Shown one piece after another: positions 4,124 to 64,000 of a stretch of 64,000 nt of DNA (the first letter of the stretch is position 1; each line of letters opens with the position of its first letter). The translations under genes and the position numbers were made by a program. This stretch comes from Apostichopus japonicus. Lineage: Eukaryota; Echinodermata; Holothuroidea; Aspidochirotida; Stichopodidae. The notes under the pieces are model-generated. The model was not told the origin of the DNA, did no database searches, and saw only the letters and a list, made by a program, of their open reading frames with translations. Where the stretch lies: assembly GCF_037975245.1 (NCBI RefSeq), contig NC_092571.1, positions 14,689,917-14,753,916 on the forward strand, written 5' to 3'.

Positions 4124-4393
4124 TCAAACTTTTATTACTTTAGTGACCTTGCCACACGGAAATTTCAATTGGGCCCGAGAAGCATCTTCTGTGAAGTGGG
4201 CAGAACAAACTTTCACATTCTTGCCATGAGAAACTCCTGGAGCGATGAAGTCTTTCCTAGTTCTCCTCACAAATCGTATCCAGAGTTTCCGATATCTCTC
4301 ACTACTTTTTCCGCTTGGAAAATTGAGAAAATTTATTGTAGAGTCCACATTCGTTCTGTTGCATCCCCCTACAACGCAATTTCTTGGATTTTG
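4124..4393 (-). CDS. THAP-type zinc-finger protein, exon with near-complete THAP domain
   Basis: Read on the minus strand from an AG acceptor (plus positions 4394-4395), the exon starts QNPRNCVVGGCNRTN. It continues through INFLNFPSGKSSERY, RKLWIRFVRRTRKDF and KNVKVCSAHFTEDA before TGA at 4124. This matches the C2CH signature of THAP domains: Cys-x4-Cys, about 51 residues, then Cys-x2-His. It also has the conserved FP, Trp and HF positions. THAP domains bind DNA in transcription regulators and in P-element-type transposases. There is no ATG in this frame because an in-frame TAG abuts the acceptor, so the initiator Met must lie in an upstream exon. The C-terminal AVPTIF box is not visible and may be in the next exon, possibly through a GT near LKFPCGK. 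It could be a host THAP gene or a remnant of a P-type transposon; no transposase domain is visible nearby. Confidence 0.82.
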   Translation of the reverse strand, partial: QNPRNCVVGGCNRTNVDSTINFLNFPSGKSSERYRKLWIRFVRRTRKDFIAPGVSHGKNVKVCSAHFTEDASRAQLKFPCGKVTKVIKV

Positions 4394-8320: not shown

Positions 8321-8725
8321 TTCGACTCCAAGGTACAGTAGGGATGGTGTTTAACCTCAGTCACCCATTGAGTACTCATGATTTGGAATATTCTTCTTGT
8401 GAGTCATCCGCATAATGAAGCATTTTGATTTGTTGAATCTCATCTGCCATGCTGACTCCCAGTTACAGAGTGAATTTATGTCTTTTTGAAGATTGTCACA
8501 ATCACTACAGGAATTTATTTGTCGGTACAGAATTTAATCATCTGCAAACATTCTTACATCAGAAGCGACACAGTCAGGTAGGTTGTTTATGTAGACTAGG
8601 AACAGCAGGGGACCCAAAACTGTTCCCTGTGGGACTCCGGAAAATACAGGAGAACTTGTTGATGACTCCCCGTAAATAATGACATTTTGAGTTCTGTTGG
8701 ATAGAAAATCCTCAATCCTGTAAAT
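8321..8725 (-). pseudogene. LINE reverse-transcriptase palm fragment (right part)
   Basis: The minus-strand frame contains IEDFLSNRTQNVIIYGESS, then SGVPQGTVLGPLLF and VRMFADD. These are the motif B (GVPQG) and motif C (ADD) blocks of a non-LTR reverse transcriptase. It is the upstream part of the same element as 7280-7942, separated from it by the hAT MITE. Upstream of IEDFL the coding sequence dissolves into the 43-bp minisatellite at 8726-9470. Confidence 0.88.
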
Positions 8726-9470
8726 TATCTTGCATAGTCTTTCAAAAGTCCTGTACAATCCTGCATATTATCTTGCATAGTCTTTCAAAAGTCCTGTACA
8801 ATCCTGTATATTATCTTGCATAGTCTTTCAAAAATCCTGTGCAATCCTGTAAATTATCTTGCATAGTCTATCAAAAGTCCTGTACAATCCTGTAAATTAT
8901 CTTGCATAGTCTTTCAAAAGTCCTGTACAATCCTGTATATTGTCTTGCATAGTCTTTCAAAAGTCCTGTACAATCCAGTATATTATCATGCAAAATCTTT
9001 TAATAATCCTGTGCAACCCTGTAAATTGTCTTGTATAGTCTTTTAAAATTCCTGTAAAATCTTGTAAATTTTGTTTGCATAATCTTTTAAAAGTCCTTAA
9101 CAATCCTGTAAATTGTCTTGCATTGTCTTTTAAAAGTCCTGTACAATCCTGTATATTATCTTGCATAATCTTTTAATAATCCTGCACAATCCTGTAAATT
9201 GTCTTGCATACAGTAACTAGTCTTTTAAAACTCCTGTAAAATCTTGTAATTTTTCTTGCATAATCTTTTAAAAGTCCTTTACAATCCTGTAAATTGTCTT
9301 GCATTGTCTTTTAAAAGTCCTGTATATTATCTTGCATAACATTTTAGTAATCCTGTACAATCCTGTAAATGATCTTATAGTCTTTTAATAGTCCTGTATG
9401 ATCCTGTAAATTATCTTGCATAAACTTTAAAAACAATCATGCACAATCCTGTTAATATCCATGTTTATTG
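8726..9470. repeat. 43-bp minisatellite array
   Basis: About 17 degenerate copies of a unit of roughly 43-44 bases, of the form CTGTAAATTATCTTGCATAG plus TCTTTTAAAAGTCCTGTACAATC. The first copies (left end) are closest to the LINE sequence next to them; copies on the right are more divergent. The adjacent LINE frame reads through the first unit, so the array may have grown out of the element. Confidence 0.93.
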
Positions 9471-9681
9471 ACTCCAGAATCCTTTACAATCCTGCAAAAT
9501 ATCTTGCAGAGTCTTTTAAAAATCATGAGTACAATGTAAATATATTTTCGCATATTTCTAGTAAACAACGTAATGGGAAGCCTCTATTAATTAATAGAGG
9601 GAGAGAAAATAATAGAGAGATAAATTTCTGTAAATTTCAAAACTCATACATGTACAACAAGAATGAAGGCTGCATGCATAC

Positions 9682-10095
9682 AGTTTGAAGGATTCCTGCA
9701 TGTATATGAAGGATTCCTGTGTGCATATGTGAAGGATTTTTGTATGCAGGATAAAAGATTCCTGAATGCATATGACCAATTATTTTGTATAAAGGATTCC
9801 TACATGTGTATGAAGGATTTCTGCATGTGTATAGACTGAGTGAAGGATTCCTGCATGTGTACGAAGGATTCTTGTACATGTATTAAGGAACCCTGCATGC
9901 ATATGAAGGACTCGTGTACGTAAATCAAGGAATCCTGCATGCTTATGAAGGATTCCTGTACAAGCATCATGGAATCCTGCATGCATATGAAGGATTCTTG
10001 TACGTAAATTTATGAAAGAATCCTGCATGTGTTTGAAGGATTCCAGACTGTGGCTGAAGGATTCCTGCTTGCATGTGAAGGATTCATGTTTGTTA
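9682..10095. repeat. ~20-25-bp minisatellite (GAAGGATTCCTGCATG family)
   Basis: Roughly 17-18 degenerate copies built around GGATTCCTGCATG followed by a short T/A/G spacer. They produce repetitive frames (RNPSYTC-like) on the minus strand that are not genes. A 22-base perfect palindrome built from the same words lies just beyond it at 10233-10254. Confidence 0.93.
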
Positions 10096-10276
10096 ATGAA
10101 GAGTTTTTATAGTGAATTCAAGAATCATGTATTTTTGTAAAGGAAAAATTGCTCTACAATGAATAAATCAAGTTTCTAACACTAAGTGGTTTATAGTACA
10201 ATCTCCATTTGGAAGGAATCCTGTTCCATATACAGGAATCCTATAGGATTCCTGCAGGACTTTTTTGTATGGGTCG

Positions 10277-16371: not shown

Positions 16372-17286
16372 CAGGTGACTCTTGTTAGTGCTTGTTTTAA
16401 TTCTGTCTCATATTCTACATCGTACATGTTTGGTGTTAAAATTATTGACGTGTTGGAAACTTCCCTAATGATGCAATAACCAATACGATGATTGCGTAAC
16501 TCACAAGTGAACTGGACTTTCCAAAAGCTTTAAAAAATTATGCCATAAAAATCTTTCTATGATATGGCTGTGTGTATATTTGGTAATCATTGCAGTGAGA
16601 GTTGCATCACAGCTTGAACCAAATTAATAGAATGTTGCAACAGCCAATGACTAGACCTGAAGGACATACCTGAAGGACATTCTTGTTTTCCTGGAAGCAA
16701 TAATAGATCAGTTTTTATATCAAACAGTCAAAGTCAATATGAAATAGATAACCACCCAACTATGTAAACCTACAGTACTGGGCATCATTTCGGGGAGTTT
16801 CAGTACAAAAGACTTAAAGGGTATCGTGTAACCTCCTGCATCTAGATGTGTGAGGGCAGGGTTATGGGTGGTGGCAAGGTGTTATTGGGGAAAGGGGGTT
16901 GGATGGGCACCAAGTTTTCACCCTGAATTATCAATGTATACCCTTTCTTTAAAGTTCCCTCATCATCACCTACCCCAAGCCACTTCTTTGTCACAGAAAT
17001 GTATGACAGGATAAAGCTTTATGATTAATTTAATTAAAGGTCGAGCTATAAAGTTGTATTAATGACCTGTACAGTATGCACATCCTGCTATGAACCATAT
17101 TCAGTGAATTCCTAATATTGTAAGTTATAGATAGTAAGTCTTCCATTTATAGATGTCTCTCACTTTCTGTTGCAGTAAATAAATTTGAATAAAATTCAAT
17201 ATTTGATAGTTTTTTCTATTTCTTTAGACGTACAGTAAATGTAATGAAATTATTATTACTATTTTTTTTAAAAATTTTTATTCCAG

Positions 17287-28069
<10,783 letters not shown>

Positions 28070-41197: not shown

Positions 41198-42000
41198 ATG
41201 AAAATGATGAATGCAACACTATATGATGTAGAAGAATTAGCACTTTCATCCAGAGGGCGAGGCTATTACATAAATAAATATGTTTACGTTCGAGATAAAG
41301 AACGCCAGGGAAAAATTTACGTTCGCTGCCAAGAGCGTAAGATATGCCAAGCTAGAGCTGTTATTTTCCCAGATTTGAAAAAGGGGCGTCTTATGCACAC
41401 ACCTCACACCCACGATCCACCGGAAGTTACCCAAATGAGCAATAAAATTCGCCTTTTACTTCCACCACGAAAACGCGGACCCGTGAAGGGGACCATTCGT
41501 ATGTTCCGCAATGGAGCACCGTTGAACGCAGGGAGAAAACAACCAAGAAAACGTGCCGTAGAAAAGGCATTCGCATCGAGAGTAGTACCCATGTCAGTCT
41601 CAAATGCTTACTTGCCCGCTGATGTCCAGCTTGAGGAACAGCAGCTTCTTGAAAGTTTCAGACAAAACGCTTATACGGCGTCCACTTCTCGAGACAGTGA
41701 CGTCACGGTCAGTTTTCCTGTCCCCGACGATGAAAATGACCCAATCGAAGAGGAGAACTACGGTGGTGGCTTTGAACAAGAATTTGCAGGGCCAAGTACT
41801 TCCACTGATGAAGGGGAGAGCTTTTACGTAGTCAATGTTGATGAGGATGGTTTCATCCCGGAAGTCGAAGAGGCTGGGCTTGAAGATCTCGAGTCATCAA
41901 AACAACACGTTGTGATTAAATCTCAAACAGAGGACTCTGAGGAAAAGGAACTACGGGTACCAGACGAACGCAAACGCCCTGGTGGTTGTCGAGAATTTCA
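41198..42000 (+). CDS. FLYWCH-type zinc-finger protein, first coding exon
   Basis: ATG at 41198 opens 267 codons that end in a strong GTAAGT donor at 42001; unspliced reading meets TAA at 42002-42004. Residues about 17-73 form a FLYWCH-like zinc finger: GRGYYINKYVYVRDKERQGK, YVRCQERKICQARAV and HTPHTHDPP. The ligands would be C44, C50, H70 and H72 (Cys-x5-Cys ... His-x-His), and the usual Trp two residues before the first Cys is Val42 here. A basic stretch (PPRKRGPVKG, GRKQPRKRAVEK, about 89-124) looks like a nuclear-localisation or DNA-contact region. The remainder is strongly acidic and Ser/Glu-rich, as in activation domains. FLYWCH domains bind DNA and occur in regulators and in some Mutator-like transposases. 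No transposase domain is present, so a host DNA-binding regulator is favoured. Confidence 0.75.
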
Positions 42001-42496: not shown

Positions 42497-42783
42497 GATT
42501 TATTTACGAAAATTACGAGGCAATGGACCGCAGGCAACGTTTACAAGATGTCGGCGGGTACTCTTTGGACGAGTTAGGCGAGGACTTTAACAGCAAATTT
42601 CACATAGAGTCTGGTGTCCTGTCCAGAGAGCCACTTGAAGATTTGCCGGAAGAAGATGTCTCCTCACCTGACATTGACAGAGTTAAAAAGACAAGTTGCC
42701 CAATTAAAGGTGGATGGCGTCGACAAAGCGATACAAATCGAAGAAAGGGTTTTTTGAGGCAAGACATAACATCTCCGGTTTAA
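42497..42783 (+). CDS. Possible second exon of the FLYWCH gene
   Basis: After a TTACTAG acceptor a frame stays open for 95 codons to TAA at 42781: FIYENYEAMDRRQRLQDVGG, YSLDELGEDFNSKFHIESG, then LPEEDVSSPDIDRVKK and a basic tail. Composition (acidic, then Lys/Arg-rich) resembles the preceding exon. The phase is wrong for a direct join from the donor at 42001. That join would instead read IYLRKLRGNGPQ and stop at TAA after about 31 codons. The long frame would need another donor, or an acceptor inside this exon (CGCAG near 42532 gives a matching phase). The exon is plausible, but its translated frame is unresolved. Confidence 0.35.
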
Positions 42784-42950: not shown

Positions 42951-43535
42951 AGGCTTCATAATTGACGCACCCCCGTAATTGACGCACCTTCAATTATTAC
43001 TAGCAACGATACAGCAGGCCACCTAAACTTTTTGCAGTCAAGCAGAATGACATATTTTATGATTTTGAATCCATTTCAGCTATTTGCTGACCATATTGTG
43101 GTATTTTTTAAGCTTTTAACACCCTCCGACCAGTTTTGCACATTTTTTGGTCATTTGGAAATCTTACTCCCTAAAAATAATCAACATTACCTCAATATGA
43201 TAACACTGCTCTCTGGAACCTGACCAGTCTGAGCTTAGAGGCTCAGAGCATAGCAAACAGCATCTAAAGTCAATGGATGTATACCAAGGCCTACACTACA
43301 GTTAGCTTTACAACGAATGTGTCAATTTAGGGGTATGAAAGAACTTGACACGGCAGACATTTTGTGGTTAAATTCTGCTCAATTGTACGGTGCATAAGCT
43401 CAGAACATTAAATATTTTGAGATCATAACATTTCTGAGGAACTACACATATGAAAAACATATACAGTCGAGTGATTTGGATTTTTCCTTGATAGATTTCG
43501 TTGATCAAATCCTTAAGTGCGTCAGTTATGAGCCC
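42951..43535. mobile_element. DNA element with GGCTCATAATTGACGCAC termini
   Basis: The left end GGCTTCATAATTGACGCAC is repeated once more just inside (GTAATTGACGCACC). The right end GTGCGTCAGTTATGAGCCC is its inverted repeat. The roughly 585-bp body has no transposase. The superfamily is undetermined, because no clear target duplication is visible. Confidence 0.65.
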
Positions 43536-44229
43536 ACCATGCTACTAGTAATAGCCCAATACTCAAACAGGTAGGACCTAGGCCTACAGTCTAATTGGCC
43601 TTTGTTTCATAGGCCTATGACCCAACTACATTTGCTTGCATCAAGGGTAGGCATAATTACTTAGTATTAGTAATACTAACACTTCAGACAGATCAGAATT
43701 TGGCAATTAATCACAACATTGACATTTACAGGTCTGTTAGTGTTACACTTACAGCGCAGGCCTAAGTCAGGTTGCACATAGATGTCACTGATCAATACTG
43801 TGTGTGACTACATAGTATACAATCTAGTACTATTGTAGTGATGTGTGACTGAGTGCATTCCCTTTCTCATTATTTATCTCCATTGCACATGAACAACTTA
43901 TAATACATATTTTATCATAACCTGCAACAAAGTAATATGTTCAGAAAGCAGAAATAATTCATGTTTGCATAAGATGAATTGTCAAAACTGTTTAAATGCA
44001 GTCAAGGAGACCTGACAAAAGCAAAAGTTTTTAAGATCAGGCCACCTTGAAAAACCAAAATAAACTAACTTATAATTCCCACGGTATCCCCTTACCCCAT
44101 TATACTAACTTAAAACTCCACATACCCTCCCTCCCACTCCTGCCGAACTCAATGCCTGACCCACACCCAACCTCTAAGCACAACTGTGGTAGAATAGTAA
44201 AATAGCAAACAGGGAAACAATATGGTTCA
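43536..44229. other. Stretch without supported feature
   Basis: AT-rich sequence between a TIR element and a LINE fragment. Nothing recognised. Confidence 0.4.
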
Positions 44230-54296: not shown

Positions 54297-54412
54297 ATGG
54301 AGAATGGAAAAATGCTACCACCAAATGCACATCACCTCGGAAAGCATCACCATTCACGATCGTTGTTACAGAAGTACCAGTCGATGGATTTGGAATCTTC
54401 TCTAATGTTGGA
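54297..54412 (+). CDS. Alternative first coding exon A (gene continues beyond window)
   Basis: ATG at 54297 in an A-rich context (AAAAAAATGG) opens MENGKMLPPNAHHLGKHHHS and RSLLQKYQSMDLESSLML. It reaches a consensus GTAAGT donor at 54413 with two bases (GA) left over. Coding quality is suggested by the start context, the perfect donor and the fact that two further ATG exons downstream (59070, 61441) end in the same phase. No known domain is visible; the short N-terminus is His-rich then amphipathic. It is probably one of several promoter-specific N-termini of a gene lying to the right. Confidence 0.5.
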
Positions 54413-56849
54413 GTAAGTAATGTACAAACTAATCAGTTGTTCAAGGAGGTGGAGGGGAGGGAGGGGGAGGGGGTGGTTGGAAAGGCGGATAAAGTTGGAT
54501 AATTTTGTAAGAGAACTTGGTTAAATGATATATGATACTTTCATTATCTTACATATTCTTTGAAAGTATTGCCCACTGGAACAAGTTTTGAATTACTCTT
54601 AGGGTGTTAGATTTCTATACTTCACTCCTCGTTAACATACAGTGTGCACTGTATTGACCTTACAGGCGCTTTGAGGACAGATTTTGAAAATAAACATCTC
54701 TTTTCTTAATTCCTACATTGAGACTCAAATTCTAGCTTGTGTATCATTTGCTTCCTATAGAGTTCTGAAGATAAATGCAAAGTTTGATATCCACGAAACA
54801 GTTGTAAAGAATATCATCTTAGAACTTTATATCACTAAATTTGTGGACGAGTCAATGATTATAAGTATTGTAGGTATATTGCTATATTCATTGATCGTTA
54901 GGGCTGATTGTGTCTGATTTTGAACATCATTTTTAATAGGGATAGCCTCAGTTTTATATTCATGCACCTTCTGGTCATCTAACCCACCCATCCCCATCCC
55001 CTACCACACCATCCTATCCACTCATGTATGAAATGTAACAGCAGAAGAGCTACTTTACCATAGTTGCCTCATGCATCCTTTGTTTGTCTTTAGGGAGGAA
55101 GTACAGAGGATGTTTTGATCTTTGCATTTTGTGCCAACCAATAGTCTAGTACCTTATTGATACAAATTCCCTCCATAGAATGTCTATAGTAAGCACATAT
55201 GTGATGACAACTTTAATTTAAATGCTACAAAGTATGGTTATAAGCCTAGTTTTTAAAATCATCACATTTTTGCACTGTTAAAAATTCTTTTATGGGAAAA
55301 GAAAATAGCACTTCATATGGCACTTAACCTAAGATATGTTAAAAGATGTTTGCTGACATTTAGAAGCAATGTATGAATGAGTCCCATCCAAACCTTATAT
55401 TTGTATTGTATAGGGTCGTGTCTCCCAATTTGCTATTGGGTGTATTGAAATAAAAGTATATCTCTCCGCCCCCACCCCCACCCCCCCAACCTCTCTTCTT
55501 TATTTTGTTATGTCAACTTTTGGAAAATATACTGGCACCGACCGGTTCACTCAGACTTATCAGCAAGTTGAATGACATGAGTGATGAGAAAACTGATATT
55601 GATCACCACCCAGGTTTACCTTGCTTTTCCTTCGTTTTTTTTTATTTATTTATTTAATTTATATATATTTTTTTAGCAATAGTACTAAAAGTGTCCTTCA
55701 AGGGGATCTTCCATACATAATAAGGAATAATCTCTCTGCTATGTTGTGTTAACAGTGTTCTTAGGAGCTGAGGTGACTCATAAATTTTGGAAGTTTACTC
55801 ACAGTCTATATACAGAATTGTGCAATGTACAGTATACTATGGTGCAATGTGTGTGTATTTTATTACGAAGGGCTTTCGGTTGCATGCAAAAGGTTACTGC
55901 AGACACCCCATTGTTTACATTTATGTTAATGCAAACAATAGGTTTGAAAGCAAAGAATAGGGAAAAAACCCCAGATTTGTCGATCTCAGCGTTTGTGGCG
56001 TGAAAAGGATTGGATCGTAAAATTACGCTTTGAATCTGGTAGGCCATTTGCCTTTGAATCGAGACAGCTTTTAAATTTTGAAAATTTTAATAACATAGCA
56101 AAAATCTTTAAAGGTTAACATGATTACTAAGATTGAAATGAGAGATTAAGGTGCTACCTATTGTTTACTACACAAAGTGAACTGTGTGATCCACTGTAGG
56201 TTGAAGCTGTGAAAAAGAAATCTTAATTTAAGTAGTAAATTTGATAAAATTGACATTTTCAGCCCAGCAGGATCTTCTGTAACAGAATAAGATACTGAGA
56301 AAGTTGATAACTCCACCAAGTGACACATAAAGAAGGACAGACTGTTTTTATTGCAAAAAGGGATAAACAGTGAGAAAATATAGAATAGGAAAATAGTGAA
56401 AAAATGAGTAACACTCAACAGATTCACCATTTAGCTAAAGCAATGTTTACATGCAGGCATCTAATGCCACAATATAAATGGCTTAAATACTGTAACTTGT
56501 TTTAAGTGTGTATCATTGACAGTTTCCAGTAATTACAGTGTATCAGTTAAGGGAAATTTGAAGACAGCTACTGAGGTATCAAGTTACCACATGTACAAAA
56601 AGTAATAAATGGTACTCACGTCAAAAATTCCCCTCAATATCTGGTTCCTTGATTGGATGTAACCCATTTTGACTGCCTAAACCAAATTTGACAAATCCAA
56701 ACATTTTTGCCATTCAAAGTGCTACAGTATGAGGGTATTGTTTTGACCTAAAGATGGAGACAATTTCCAGTATTTTTTGGTTTCGATGACAAGAGAAACC
56801 TACACCTGTATGCAGTCACGATAGTGTTTGTGTGAGGCCTTGCTTGTAG
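54413..56849 (+). other. Stretch without supported gene (likely intron)
   Basis: If the exon at 54297 is real, this is intron. G-rich runs near 54445-54475 and AT-rich sequence; frames at 55746-56430 lack motifs. Confidence 0.35.
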
Positions 56850-57790
56850 GGTAACTTGGATGAATGTCATACTTGATGTGTCCAATATTGAGTAGAAGAA
56901 CTTATTTTCTTGGAGTTCATAGGTCATTTGAGGTCACCAGATGTCAAGCTGTTAAAATTTTGTATAACACCATATCTCAAGATTGGCACTTGATGAAACT
57001 CATACTTGGTATGTAAATGTTCTTTATTATATAAGTAGAAAGAATCCTATTGCTGTTGGTTGATTTCAAAGGTCATTTAAAGGTCAAACTGAAAAGTTTG
57101 TAAACAGGATATCCCCAGATGGGAAACTAACAAATCTCATGCTTTGCATGTGGATGCTGAGATCAATATTAAGCACAATAACCCTATCAAGGGTCATTTG
57201 AGGTCACCAAAGGTGAAATTATGAAACCCTTGTAAACACAATTTCAAAAGATGAAAAACTTTTGACAGATCGCATACTTAGCATGTGTATGTCCTATATT
57301 GAGTAGAAGAACCCTATTGTTTTTTTGTGGAGTACAAAGGTCATCTCAGGTCACCAGAGGTCAAACTGAAAACTTTGTTATCTCTCAAGTTAGGAAGCAA
57401 GGTTAATTTTCATACTTAGAATGTAGATACATTATAGTGGGGTAGAAGAAACCTATTGTTGTTATCTGAGGTTAACAGAGTTCAAGCACTAAAAATCTTG
57501 TAAACATATCACATTACAACAAGTATGAATACTTTTCACACTTAGCAGGTCTGTGCATCATATTAAGTATAAGAACCTTATTGTTTTTGGTAGAGGTCAT
57601 CTGAGGTCACCAGACTTCAAATACTGAAAAGTTGTAAACACTTTATCTGAAGATAGGAGACAGGATACTCATCATACTTATTGTGTGGAATTGTTATATT
57701 AAGTAAAAGAAATGTCTTATCAGTGGAGGTCAAAGGTCACCAGAGTTCAAATATTGGAAACCTTGTAACACAGGAATAGCTCTGTTAGGA
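56850..57790. repeat. ~130-bp minisatellite with AGGTCA direct repeats
   Basis: About seven degenerate units of roughly 130 bases. A typical unit contains AGTAGAAGAACCCTATTGTT, AGGTCATTTGAGGTCACCAG, then CTTGTAAACAC, ATATCTCAAG and CATACTTAGCATGT. Within units AGGTCA half-sites recur at 10-base steps (6 + 4 spacing), for example 57338-57363 (three perfect copies), 56921-56946, 57191-57216 and 57594-57609. Confidence 0.9.
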
Positions 57791-59069
57791 AGACCTGCCT
57801 TAATCCCTATATAACATAATTTTCCCATTGAAATGCTACACTATCAGCACTCATTTGTATATATGTACAGTCATACTGTAGTGCATATATGGTATCGCTC
57901 GTTAGAATTTTGCATCTCTACCAGCATAACAGTTGAAGTACTTCAACCTCTCTCAGTGGCATGTGCTCTACCCTCGCACCGGAAACAGTGAATTTTCTGT
58001 ACATTATTGGTACAAATCTTATACCTGCTTAATTTGTCACTACAGTCAATAATCTAGTTTCTCAGCTTGTTGTACTGGTAACATCTTCCTTCAGTCCCCT
58101 GTGGAGATAAAAGGGATATAATGAGCAAGATAGATAGAGAGAGCGACTCTAATCCAGACAGCCAAAGGTTTTGTTTACTTCTGCCACGCATATAGAATGG
58201 TTGCATGTACATGTGGATTCAGTTCAGTGTACAGCAGAACTGTTTACAGTACCCATGGAGAACCCATGGCCGCCAGTACAAAGTCCTCACTTAGCAAGGT
58301 GTTAAACAACAACCCTCTTCACTGGAAGGTTTCATTTATTAACAGTGGTATCATGACTCTGCATTTATCCAGACCTATACAGTATATTAACCACACAGGA
58401 GGCACGGTTCAGTGAACGTTCCATGTAAAACATTTCTTTCAGATGCAAACCGAGGACTTGTGACAATTTCTTTCTTCTTTTGGTAACTCGGTGGATGTTT
58501 GTTTTCAAGATGTTAGCCCTGATGAATTCTTTCTTAATCGGACTGTGGTAAATTGGATCTGTGTCTGTTTTCTTTCAGCTCTTTTAAGCTGTTAATGTTT
58601 TTGGTATTAGGGCAACCATAGTGTAGGAAGGAAGACGCTCAGAGTTATATATTTTGAGTGTTAATATTATCGTTTCTAGAATGTCAAGCAGAACAGGAAG
58701 ATTTTTCTCCTTGAACAAATATACATGGAAATTCACACTTTCATTCTCTCATTAGGATCCGTGGATATTTGCTGCTCCAGCATGGTTTGACACCAATGTT
58801 ATAAAGAGAGAAATGAGCCCCGCTTTCAGTTTTCTGTTTGGATGATGAGTGCTACAGTATTACTGTAAATTTTGTTTCCTGGAACTTGTGTTTTTATTGC
58901 AAGGTTATCAGCCTCGGAGGATATTTTGGGGCTCAGGTTTATCAAGTTTTATATTTTAACCTTCTCAGTTGTCAAGTCATTGTTGATTTTGAAACATTTC
59001 AAGAGTTTAATTTAGAATGTTAATTTGCTAAAAAGAGAGGATATCGGAACTACCAAAAAATACAGTAAA
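57791..59069 (+). other. Stretch without supported gene (likely intron)
   Basis: A 72-codon ATG frame at 58197 (MVACTCGFSSVYSRTVYS) has no consensus donor. It is not called as an exon. Confidence 0.35.
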
Positions 59070-59176
59070 ATGCCTTCAACAACATATCCGGGAGATTTGC
59101 ACCACCGGCTTTGCAATGGCCCGAAAAAGCTGTATACTAAAGATCTTTGCAAGGGTCTGAGTGATTCTTTGGACCA
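59070..59176 (+). CDS. Alternative first coding exon B
   Basis: ATG at 59070 (GTAAAATGC context) opens MPSTTYPGDLHHRLCNGP and KKLYTKDLCKGLSDSLD, then a GTAAGT donor at 59177 with two bases (CA) left over. This is the same exit phase as the exons at 54297 and 61441. It has no recognisable domain. The likely role is an isoform-specific N-terminus. Confidence 0.5.
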
Positions 59177-59715
59177 GTAAGTAAAACCAGTGATTTTTTA
59201 AGTTGGCCTGGTCATTTCTGAATACAGTACATAATTGCTAAGAACTGTATTGATCATGCATATTAGACACAGGTACCTATAGCTGTTCATGCTTTGAATC
59301 CTGGTAAGGTTTTGCTCCAAGCAGTTTTTTATTTACTTCTTCTTTCAGGAAGTGAGCTGTAGCGTGACATAATTCTAGCACTGTATATTTCTTGTTATAA
59401 TTGTTACCATTCTGAAAAGGAGTATAAAAGGGCCTATGATGTCAAGCGCTGTCGCTTTTATACAGGTAATCTGTACACGGTAGAGAGCGGTTTGTTATTA
59501 GTTTGGCTCTGGATTTTAAATGGCAACTAACTCATATTTGTAGTTGTGAGTCATATATTACTCAATAATAGTCCAATTCCCTCTCCTCCCCCTCCCCCCT
59601 TCCCCCACTCCCTACCATTTCTAAATGATTAGTTGAAAATTTATTAAGGTGGTGACACACTGATCAATGCATCTGCCACAACCTTTATGTAATGTATGAA
59701 TATTTTCATCTGTAC

Positions 59716-59777
<62 letters not shown>

Positions 59778-60803
59778 TACTATATTCTACTATATTCTAC
59801 TATATTATGTACTGAGACTGGTTACATTATGGACCCCACTTCCACTACCCTCTATTTTTCACAGATAATATATTGTTAAATACCTGAAGGCCATTACACT
59901 CTACCATTTACGGATTCCTCACCCCAATGAACATCTACGTTATATAATTGGTGGTAAGCTTCCTCTTCCAAAATTCCACTATGCCGTTCAAAAAATGAGA
60001 AATGGGATTTGGGGAGGGGGAAGGCTAGGTGACTATCTGGACCACACCCTATTAGACCCTCTTCTACTTCATGGGTATAATATATTACCTTTCTTCAAAT
60101 ATCTGTCATTAATTCTGATGATGCGAATGTTTGGCAGAGGGAGGGGATTTATTACATTCCATGGCTGTTGTGAGAAATATTGTCAATTCGTCAGGGATTA
60201 TTTTAACCTAAATACACTTCACTGACAAACCCCCCCCCCCCGACCTACAAACATGACTCCCTTATTTTATGGCTCTATCATCGACCATAATTTTCCCGTT
60301 TCATAATTATATACGCCTGACGTTTTGATCCTAGCAGTATCTTCTTAACCTCATAGGCTCAACATTCAGGAAGGACATATATAACCTTTCTTCTGCTCCC
60401 CCCCCCCCTTTCCCTGTCACCCCTCTTCCCCTAGCTCTCTCCCACCTCATATCTCCAGTGCACTTTCCTGTTTTTTATTTTTTTTTTATTTCACAATTAT
60501 AATATACAATATTCTGAAAAATATTACCCCAGAATAATCTATAGCTAGTATAGAACAGTAAGTATATATGTGTCAAAGGAAGCATAGATGTCCTGTTCAT
60601 AAATGTGTTTTTTCCTTCCTAGAGGTAAACAAGAAATGCCTAATTACCCCCCACAGCGAGAAGCTTTCACTTACAGTACTTACATAATTATCAAAATGCT
60701 GTTATGCGAAGCTCTTAGCTTTCCATGCAGGCAGTTAACACATCTGCAAGCAGACAAAATTGTTGAAAATACGGATCTGAACCGTCGTAAAATTTAACTT
60801 GTT
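59177..60803. other. Stretch without supported gene; (AT)n at 59715-59776
   Basis: Contains a 60-base AT dinucleotide tract followed by three TATATTCTAC copies, and C runs near 60228 and 60399. No exon is supported. Confidence 0.45.
59715..59776. repeat. (AT)n microsatellite
   Basis: About 60 bases of AT dinucleotide with a single interruption. Confidence 0.95.
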
Positions 60804-60991
60804 TCATTTGTTTATAAATAGCACATGACATTCACTATGCATCATCCATGTTCCGGAATATTTTAAAAAACCTTTCTCCGAATTCGCATCATGAGTTGGC
60901 TTTAAATCATCGTCCACAATGTTTTCACTGTCTACGTGTATATTGATTAGCTCACAGCCATGAATCGTTTCGAAAGGGAAGATTCCATAAA
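60804..60991 (-). CDS. Possible terminal exon of an unidentified minus-strand gene
   Basis: On the minus strand a long pyrimidine tract and ACATTTTCAG acceptor (plus 60992-60993) lead into VYGIFPFETIHGCELINIHV, DSENIVDDDLKPTHDANSE and KGFLKYSGTWMMHSECHV, stopping at TGA (60804). The exceptionally good acceptor and balanced amino-acid composition favour a real exon, with one base supplied by an upstream exon. TTTATT-rich sequence about 320 bases further on could supply the polyadenylation signal. I do not recognise the protein. It would be antisense to, and nested within, the plus-strand gene with alternative starts. Confidence 0.35.
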
Positions 60992-61440
60992 CTGAAAATG
61001 TAGATAAGAAAAAGAGGGGAAAAAAAGGAAGAAGAAGCAAATATAAAAAAAAAATCATCCCCATCAATCATAGTTAAGAGCATTGCTTAAAGTGTAAACA
61101 AGAGGGTGGCTATAGATACTATTAGTGATTGCAATGGAATTGCACAAGAGCATTTCTGAAAATGGGAAGTTACATATGGACTGATGAGTAATGATATTAG
61201 TTGTTTGCCACCTCCACAATACATCGAAGAACTCTAGTACTAATATATTTGTATACGTTCAACCACGACTTATGGGCTGTAATTCTGTACGTTGGCTCTT
61301 AGCTCAGTTAATTAATGGAAGCTCTGTTCTGTGACCTCACACTGGATTCATAGTATTTTATTGTATGTAGACTCCTTTTATCGTTTACGAGGATGTATTT
61401 TGAACACAATTTGTGGAAAAGGTGATTTCGTTTCGAAAGT

Positions 61441-61700
61441 ATGAAATCTAATGCTGGAACTACTAAGATGATGACTACACAGTATAGCCCTGCTGGTATG
61501 TGTGTGCCTAACATGAAGCCTGCATCTAAACCCAGTGCTACTAGTGTGTACGTTAACAGCCTGTGTTGTGGCATGAATAACTTACTGCTGACTGACGTCG
61601 TTGAAGATGAATCCTATGTTAGGCCGTCTGATAAATTGAGGCATTTGAACGGTTTGATATCACCCCCCTGTACCGTGGATCGAGATCCGTTCGAGAAGCA
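61441..61700 (+). CDS. Alternative first coding exon C
   Basis: ATG at 61441 opens 86 codons: MKSNAGTTKMMTTQYSPAGM, CVPNMKPASKPSATSVYVNS, LCCGMNNLLLTDVVEDESYV, RPSDKLRHLNGLISPPCTVD and RDPFEK. It reaches a consensus GTAAGT donor at 61701 with two bases (CA) left over. The phase equals that of the exons at 54297 and 59070. The segment is hydrophilic with no signal peptide or membrane helix, so it is probably a cytosolic N-terminal regulatory segment. Minus-strand frames over the same bases are shadows. Confidence 0.55.
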
Positions 61701-64000
61701 GTAAGTAGTTTTGTAACAAGACTTTGTTGCTTAAGACAGAAATTTTACAAAAAATATATAAAAAATACAAAAAAAAATTAAAATCAGACGAATTCCATGA
61801 AATTTTGCAATGAGGATTTGTGTAAAGGCTTCCTTTTTTTTTTTTTTTTTTTGAGGAATAGGGAAAGAGAGTTAAGATAAATTACTTCTATTGGCCTGCA
61901 TACAGTCAAACCTATCTATTTTTGTGTGTACATTTTCAAGGTTTCAGGTCACCTACTGTATCTAATTCTCACATGGTTTTGGACATACAAGATATAACAC
62001 ATTCGGACAGCCACATGCAATCAAAGCACCAGAGTTATGGGCTTAACCTGCGATGTTAATCTATGAGTACTTTAATATAATAATTGGGATATTTTGACAC
62101 ATCTGTTGAGGGGATGGGGCGGTGTGGGTAGATATTAACATGAATGCTTAGTTACTGTACCATCTATGAAAAAACAGTTTACTGGTTGGTGTTCATGGGA
62201 TTGCAAATTTCTCACCATTGGTGATAGAATAACTGTAGCTCGTTGAAACTGTTTCCTCGGTGGCCATGAGTTGGCACCTTCCATAGCCATCATGATGTAC
62301 AACATTGATGAAAATTATTAGAAGAGACAGATTTCACTGATCTTGCTACTTTTTCGTGTAAAGACACAGGGTTTGGTTTCCATACGTCAGTAAAGTTTGT
62401 CAACAGCTCAACTTGCATGCTAAAAGTGCTCCAGCAACTTGCAAACTTTTCAAAAATTTTCGTGCTGAGATTGGAGACTGGTTGATTTTGGAGTACACTA
62501 GTACAATACTTGTAATAGGTAATGTATTGTGTGTTTGGTGTTTATTGTGGGTTCATTTTTGCATTAGGTTTGTACAATGTTGGTATACGTTTACATCACT
62601 CGTACAATGTGAGTTCATTTTTGCATTAGGTTTTACAATGTTGGTATATGTTTGCAACACTCGTAACAATGTAACGCTTTGTAACAATGTCGGTACAATA
62701 CTTGCGATAATATACTGTAGGTAAAGATTCTTAAACTGGCTTTGTCCATTTTATATTGTTTTCATCTCGTTCCACAAACCTTCTTGGAACATTACTTCTG
62801 TACTCGCTCAAGCAGATGTTTTCAAATTGCCTTAATCGCACATTGTATAAGTTAAGCAAGATTACAACTTTGCAAGTAAGTTAATAATATTTCTACTGCC
62901 AATTTTTACTTGTAGTCATTCTCTCTTTGCTTATTACATTAAATATATAATGTAAGCAATATTTCCACAGTCCTTCAAATTCGTTCTAGATATATGGTTA
63001 CAGTATATGTGAACTTGTGACTGCTAGTTTGTTTGAAACCTGTTTTATCTCGATCAAGAAACCTTTATAAGGAAATAATTTGGATAAATAATAAAGGATT
63101 TCAACACCATTGCTCTCACAGGGTGTACACTGTAGATTGTGGAAGTTTTACTGTACGTAATCTTATATTTGCGGATAAAGTCCAATAGCTTACAGTGGTC
63201 AATCTCTTCAAGCTTATTGCAATAATTGAGTAACGGTCACTCTCAGCGCGGGAGCGACATATGTTGGCAAATCACCCGCAAGGAAGCAAAGGGGTCATCT
63301 TTTCTTCAAAGGGGTCATCTTTTCTTCAAAGGGGAGTGAAAATTATCTAGTAATTGGCTTTCAGAGATAATAAGAATGTAAACAGCTGTTGCCCTGATTC
63401 TTGTATGTTAATTAGGGCTAGAGTATATATATGCTCTTCTACTGTTCCTATATAGTATACAGTGTAAATGCATAGGTATTACAGTATCATAATAGCTTAA
63501 GTGTTGATGTCTCTATCCTGTGAAATGTAATATGTACTGTACGTTCTCAAGATATACTATTTGTGACAGAATTATGCAACATAGTCATGTCACAATTCAT
63601 GTTACTCTAAATGCATGTTTAATTCATGTTATTCTAAATGCATGTTTAATTCATGTTATTTTAAGTGCATGTTTAATTCATGTTATTCTAAATGCATGTT
63701 TAATGGCCAGAGAGTGTATTTTATAAGCAGTTTGTCAATTTTATGCAGGTACTGTACATGTACTGTAGCTCTTGTTTACCAATTGATCGTACTGTGTTTC
63801 ACACTACTAGTTCGGTAGTTTGCACAGAACATGAAGTATTGTGAATATATATATAAGCCAGGCTCAGATATATAACCAACAAAACTGCCCTGAGCAGTCT
63901 GAGCTTATGTGATCATTCCCCAGTAAACATGATGAGGGGTTTTTATTCTGGCTGTGAGGACAATTTAGTGTCAGATTGAAAGATTAAAAGAAGAGTGCTA
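61701..64000 (+). other. Stretch without supported gene; short tandem repeats
   Basis: Probable intron. Contains a roughly 62-bp tandem duplication (62553-62660, GTGxGTTCATTTTTGCATTAGG), a 20-bp duplication (63290-63335) and the 27-bp repeat at 63596-63704. A frame at 62389-62511 (VSKVCQQLNLHAKSAPATCK) ends at a GTAATG and was not strong enough to call. Confidence 0.4.
63596..63704. repeat. 27-bp tandem repeat
   Basis: Four copies of TTCATGTTATTCTAAATGCA plus TGTTTAA with very few substitutions. Confidence 0.93.

Follow-up and report, generated by a model that had tools for sequence, protein, structure and literature searches.

Probable use of three tandem ATG exons as alternative first coding exons by a cytosolic-type NAD kinase gene

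Which gene, if any, makes use of three tandem ATG exons that share strand, exit phase and donor hexamer? The question is raised by a stretch of 64,000 nucleotides (nt), hereafter the window, which is the forward strand of C11:14689917-14753916 from a genome that comprises 671.6 Mb in 35 contigs; its GC content is 37%, and its patchy CpG pattern suggests an invertebrate. An earlier note on this stretch had described the three exons (here E1, E2 and E3) as tandem alternative N-termini, and the positions, ATG starts, open frames, GTAAGT hexamers and two-base exits (GA, CA and CA) that it gave are exact in every case (Table 1). It had also placed the common exons of the gene to the right of the window. 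For the present analysis, the window and the 200 kb to its right were joined into 264 kb, with coordinates that continue the window numbering. Judged from the sequence of this region, a gene for a NAD kinase (NADK) of the cytosolic type probably uses E1, E2 and E3 as alternative first coding exons, and its nine shared exons (S1 to S9) lie to the right of the window.

The shared exons span C11:14756503-14778267 on the same strand as E1-E3, starting 2.6 kb past the right edge of the window and 4.9 kb after E3, so that the predicted common exons are present on the predicted side. A scan for splice sites and composition yielded NAD kinase peptides in exons at 73-89 kb, and a search with human NADK recovered the same exons in collinear order, plus an extra exon at 66.58 kb. 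The boundaries of S1-S9 were set by hand from the splice consensus and the human alignment; all nine acceptors are AG, the donors of S1-S8 are GT, and the phases are consistent throughout. In the conceptual protein that starts with E1, Pfam recognises the C-terminal domain of ATP-NAD kinase (PF20143, 6.7e-37) and the N-terminal domain (PF01513, 2.9e-16), with the GGDGT motif in CLGGDGTLLYASSLF of S4. The same protein matches the solved NAD kinase of PDB entry 9cr3, the chain letters of which agree with human NADK, at 2.4e-140 over query residues 29-419, with one additional glutamate at the S4-S5 junction relative to the solved enzyme. Exon S1 encodes RTRSINAPIPAPSFGPKAC, aligned to RTRSLHGPCPVTTFGPKAC of the solved NADK; it is the equivalent of human residues 61-88 and carries the motif RTRS, whose serine is residue 64 by solved-chain numbering (human Ser64). 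The downstream gene is a cytosolic-type NAD kinase.

The first residues encoded by S1 correspond to human NADK from residue 61 onward, so the gene must have a start exon further upstream, and that exon must exit in phase 2. In this respect all three candidates fit one shared acceptor, as the earlier note had anticipated: S1 takes an incoming phase of 2 and opens with an A that completes the split codons of E1, E2 and E3 in silico. The introns to S1 would measure 12,174, 7,410 and 4,886 nt, respectively, and splicing in silico to S1-S9 gives proteins of 440, 437 and 488 residues with no internal stop. Moreover, S1 is a symmetric cassette, with phase 2 at both ends, and is therefore skippable. 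The first base of S2 is G, and joining E1, E2 or E3 directly to it (acceptor 73223) creates Glu, Gln or Gln at the junction and leaves the frame open.

Table 1. Positions of the candidate first exons, the shared NADK exons and associated features (window numbering, continued to the right of the window).
Feature	Position	Strand	Remarks
E1, candidate alternative first coding exon	54297-54412	+	38 aa MENGKMLPPNAHHLGKHHHSRSLLQKYQSMDLESSLML + junction codon GA/A = Glu
E1 donor GTAAGT	54413-54418	+	GGA directly before; score 2.1
E2, candidate alternative first coding exon	59070-59176	+	35 aa MPSTTYPGDLHHRLCNGPKKLYTKDLCKGLSDSLD + junction codon CA/A = Gln
E2 donor GTAAGT	59177-59182	+	CCA directly before; score 3.3
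E3, candidate alternative first coding exon	61441-61700	+	86 aa + junction codon CA/A = Gln
E3 donor GTAAGT	61701-61706	+	GCA directly before; score 2.3
S1	66587-66673	+	NADK shared exon, 87 nt; start = C11:14756503
S2	73223-73352	+	NADK shared exon; start = C11:14763139
S3	76540-76648	+	NADK shared exon
S4	81978-82063	+	NADK shared exon; contains CLGGDGTLLYASSLF
S5	83465-83567	+	NADK shared exon
S6	85335-85580	+	NADK shared exon
S7	86840-86997	+	NADK shared exon
S8	87562-87644	+	NADK shared exon
S9	88147-88351	+	NADK shared exon; includes stop codon
Left edge of CpG-poor domain	43000-43001	.	change point
E0, tentative short first exon	43539-43570	+	MLLVIAQYSN + AG/A = Arg
FLYWCH zinc-finger exon or ORF	41198-42000	+	803 nt; PF04500 7.6e-7; phase-2 exit, CA/GTAAGT; CA/A = Gln if joined to S1

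The sequence around the three start codons is consistent with initiating exons. The ATG codons of E1, E2 and E3 are preceded by an in-frame stop at 24, 57 and 18 nt, respectively, and none of the three has an acceptor-like site with a score above 3 between that stop and the ATG. This arrangement favours E1-E3 as initiating exons but falls short of proof, because real NADK acceptors at this locus score down to 1.2. The base at position -3 of the ATG is A in all three exons, as against 33% of 273 open reading frames (ORFs) in the window, and by contrast in GC content to their flanks E1, E2 and E3 rank 46, 34 and 29 among the same 273 ORFs. A genome search placed the E1 DNA at a single location. 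The possibility that the exons are tandem duplicates of one another was set aside, as their DNA matches are short and weak (best E 0.014). Taken by itself, exon E3 matches nothing in Pfam or PDB, it has no relatives in viral contigs, and a text search of the literature did not find the peptides of E1-E3.

How improbable is such a cluster? The earlier note held that agreement of this kind is unlikely by chance, a claim that stands in weakened form. On the plus strand of the window, 4 of the 29 GTAAGT hexamers are reached from an ATG whose frame stays open in phase 2 for at least 107 nt, with 1.16 expected (binomial 0.027), and in the last 10 kb the same is true of three of the five hexamers (3.4e-4, calculated post hoc). 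Order-3 Markov simulation produced a same-phase cluster of at least three within 10 kb, on either strand, in 3 of 300 windows; this figure is somewhat optimistic, since the real window holds eight candidates on both strands and the simulated windows hold a mean of 3.1. Taken alone, then, the cluster is moderately improbable by chance, and the window alone would have left the case undecided. Phase 2 is singled out by the NADK acceptor rather than by exon size and donor alone: among candidates of at least 100 nt with a donor score above 1.5 (standard matrix) between 43,000 and S1, phases 0, 1 and 2 are represented by 1, 5 and 3 on the plus strand and by 3, 0 and 2 on the minus strand, the three plus-strand, ATG-open candidates in phase 2 being E1, E2 and E3 themselves. 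In addition, in phase 2 the GTAAGT hexamer supplies an in-frame TAA; such ORFs therefore stop exactly at the donor and are easily noticed by a reader.

Several observations weigh against assigning E1-E3 to NADK. A phase match to S1 has a prior of one in three, and on the plus strand the phase-1 candidates outnumber those of phase 2, five to three, at the same donor threshold. The donors had been called perfect, which holds for the GTAAGT hexamers but not for the full sites, which score just 2.1-3.3 and have A at position -1 in all three exons; in the animal consensus G is usual at this position and A is uncommon. In composition and codon scores E1-E3 lie no higher than between the top eighth and the top third of the ORFs in the window. 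By amino-acid composition, E3, E1 and E2 rank 33, 35 and 71 of 280 ORFs in total score, and 33, 35 and 90 per residue. By codon usage trained on the NADK exons, E3, E2 and E1 rank 35, 44 and 51 of 280 by total, with negative scores throughout. Training on the FLYWCH exon (Table 1) and an ORF starting at 42523 gives mixed support, with E2, E1 and E3 at ranks 11, 85 and 186 of 278 by total. Furthermore, the acceptor of S2 that keeps the frame, 73223, scores just 1.2, whereas a rival 38 nt upstream, 73185, scores 6.2. The weaker site is preferred because of frame and human alignment, as 73185 enters in phase 0, is incompatible with S1 and with E1-E3, and adds residues without a human counterpart; four of the nine NADK acceptors score below 3.8, that of S2 being the lowest. 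A CpG peak of the kind expected for an unmethylated promoter is lacking upstream of E1 (26th percentile) and E2 (61st percentile), the content upstream of E3 being at the 87th percentile. Lastly, the support comes from the genome sequence of one species.

Where would transcription of the NADK unit begin? The ratio of observed to expected CpG is 0.88 to the left of position 43,000 and 0.39 to its right (change point located in steps of 500 bases across 32-64 kb, with a log-likelihood gain of 52). The CpG-poor domain begins to the left of E1-E3, continues through NADK and extends to about 167 kb, also taking in genes that lie further right than NADK. In oyster, CpG methylation is described in PMC4378273 as climbing sharply past the transcription start and then reaching a plateau along genes, and CpG-poor stretches can therefore mark gene bodies. 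The edge at 43,000 is thus read as the 5' edge of a methylated gene-body domain that contains NADK. NADK is the first plus-strand gene recognised inside this edge, which makes the region near 42-43 kb, at 11 kb to the left of E1, a candidate site for its outermost promoter. The tentative short first exon E0 has a donor (CAG/GTAGGA) that scores 5.6 and the top combined score among 15 phase-2 candidates with donors above 1.5 between 40 and 73.2 kb; joined to S1, it would read RRTRS, like human NADK.

Just to the left of the edge, in the CpG-rich stretch, lies a fourth exon, built like E1-E3 and absent from the earlier note, which encodes a FLYWCH zinc finger. Its full-donor score is 0.97, under the 1.5 that E1-E3 pass. 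A genome search, the counts of which are lower bounds, returned the exon itself and one distant match (5.7e-4) with no near copy, leaving an origin from a repeat element unsupported, and a search of genome contigs and phages gave no relatives. This exon may be a separate gene ending at the TAA. It is improbable, if worth stating, that the NADK unit starts near 41-43 kb with the FLYWCH exon as its outermost alternative first exon, giving a FLYWCH-NADK protein of 669 residues. Were this so, the zinc finger would bring NAD kinase to DNA, and nicotinamide adenine dinucleotide phosphate (NADP) would be made at chromatin by a protein produced alongside three forms with other tails. Between the FLYWCH exon and the edge, an 86-codon ORF (42523-42783, plus strand) has a composition that is strongly protein-like (rank 3 of 280) and no Pfam domain, and the basic stretch around WRRQSDTNRRKGFL resembles, by eye, a calmodulin-binding segment. 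This ORF was discarded as an NADK first exon, being without a phase-2 donor above 1.5.

A left-hand promoter bears on the number of real first exons and on how they are reached. It is possible, though somewhat against expectation, that E1-E3 are alternative 5' exons of transcripts from one promoter near 42-43 kb and are chosen by splicing, an arrangement that is compatible with their role as NADK first coding exons and incompatible with the multi-promoter gene of the earlier note. The CpG edge at 43 kb points this way, as do the acceptor-like sites upstream of E2 (at 491 nt, score 7.0, and at 314 nt, score 5.8) and of E1 (at 440 nt, score 4.8), by which some of the three could be exons of a transcript that begins further left, and the lack of a promoter-like CpG peak at E1 and E2. 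The lack of any acceptor scoring at least 3 within 500 nt upstream of E3 argues the other way, weakly so given the low scores of the NADK acceptors themselves. Rather doubtful is the case in which NADK uses just one or two of these exons as its first and the remainder are chance ORFs at GTAAGT sites, with the main start elsewhere, for instance at E0 or in a non-coding exon near 42-43 kb. Chance alone yields about one such phase-2 candidate per 29 GTAAGT hexamers, the short E1 and E2 have unremarkable codon scores, the CpG edge lies well to the left of E1, and E0 leads its list; set against these points are the density of such exons in the last 10 kb and the fact that all three combine A at -3 with a phase compatible with S1.

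It is unlikely that E1-E3 are all open frames produced by chance and belong to no gene. About one simulated window in 100 contains such a cluster, before allowing for the free choice of pattern, and the coding scores are weak and the -1 base unusual; but the strand, side and phase predicted blind turned out to be those of NADK S1. The PDE4-type phosphodiesterase, or other signalling gene, that the earlier note had offered by analogy can be dismissed for practical purposes. The long forms of PDE4 do have tandem alternative first exons sharing one exit phase, and in this the layout is similar, but a tblastn search with human PDE4D gave a best E of 0.60 in the window and no hit at E<=0.1 across the full 264 kb, and the first gene recognised rightward on the same strand is NADK, a different gene and enzyme.

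The reading of E1-E3 as alternative first coding exons of NADK finds its closest known parallel in the sea urchin Strongylocentrotus purpuratus. Two isoforms, NADK-1 and NADK-2, differ in about 90 N-terminal residues, the tail of SpNADK-2 binding calmodulin directly and SpNADK-1 being phosphorylated at Ser18 in a manner dependent on calcium/calmodulin kinase, and human Ser64 has been linked to CaMKII (all according to the review PMC6593290). As far as that description goes, the likeness lies in one NADK enzyme with forms that carry different N-terminal tails, whereas the present locus would have three, perhaps four or five, tails in tandem in the genome, and has RTRS on a cassette exon usable by all of them. 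The work on the sea urchin isoforms is, as told in the review, reportedly that of Love et al. in PNAS in 2015. With 87 unique residues, E3 would be nearest in length to the isoform difference that the review describes; a simple scan for amphipathic and charged segments found nothing convincing as a calmodulin-binding segment in E1-E3. Human cytosolic NADK shares the collinear catalytic protein and the S1 segment with Ser64, but its N-terminal tail does not align with those considered here, the match beginning at residue 29 of the E1 form. An exception is an SRSL motif in E1 that the human tail also has.

If E1-E3 are indeed NADK first exons, each would be spliced to S1, or across this symmetric cassette to S2, and a different N-terminal tail would be placed before the same catalytic body. 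The positions, frames and fitting splice-site pairs can be read directly, as can the identity of the gene; we infer that E1-E3 are transcribed and spliced in this way, that they may have promoters of their own and that their tails differ in regulation. Such an arrangement would exchange the regulatory tail while the phospho-site and the enzyme behind it stay the same, and the RTRS site could be gained or lost according to whether S1 is included or skipped. Its likely purpose would be to regulate NADP production differently across cells or stages, with tail-dependent autoinhibition, phosphorylation or calmodulin control as candidate modes. Phosphorylation of the amino-terminal domain of NADK by Akt lifts self-inhibition, according to the review PMC12507031. 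The alternative-first-exon layout is already known, as are alternative NADK tails in particular, and the locus would be a further example, its tails outnumbering the two that the review describes for sea urchin. Tandem tails before a skippable phospho-site exon would provide a concrete genomic basis for switching the control of NADP supply, in which each tail and the S1 cassette are open to separate assay. It also remains that a guess on splice phase made from raw sequence pointed to a gene beyond the window.

Searches for shared exons inside the window were negative: a strict exon scan of 42-64 kb, at thresholds too stringent for several of the true NADK acceptors, left one implausible proline-rich candidate, and a looser scan of 43-170 kb gave none before 73 kb among the best 45 of 177 candidates. 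Pfam found nothing in the plus frames of 44.1-64 kb or the minus frames of 54-64 kb, a result of little weight, because in the plus frames of the next 10 kb S1 and S2 likewise escaped Pfam. For the three plus frames of 54-64 kb, PDB gave weak matches or none (best 0.021), mostly to antibody linker-like stretches, among the 60 of 93 matches shown. Elsewhere in the window, a cytidine deaminase-like exon (17193-17643, plus strand; PF00383, 1.3e-5) is partly repeated about 150 bp downstream, with a 13-residue peptide occurring twice, a THAP-domain open frame lies at 4124-4393 on the minus strand (PF05485, 9.4e-11), and long arrays of diverged tandem repeats of 43 bp and 21/42 bp occupy 8713-10101. 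To the right of NADK, the candidates listed include further coding-like exons at about 119-150 kb on the plus strand and about 154-167 kb on the minus strand in the extended coordinates, which we take to be candidates for a condensin subunit D2-like gene and a TTI1-like gene, respectively.

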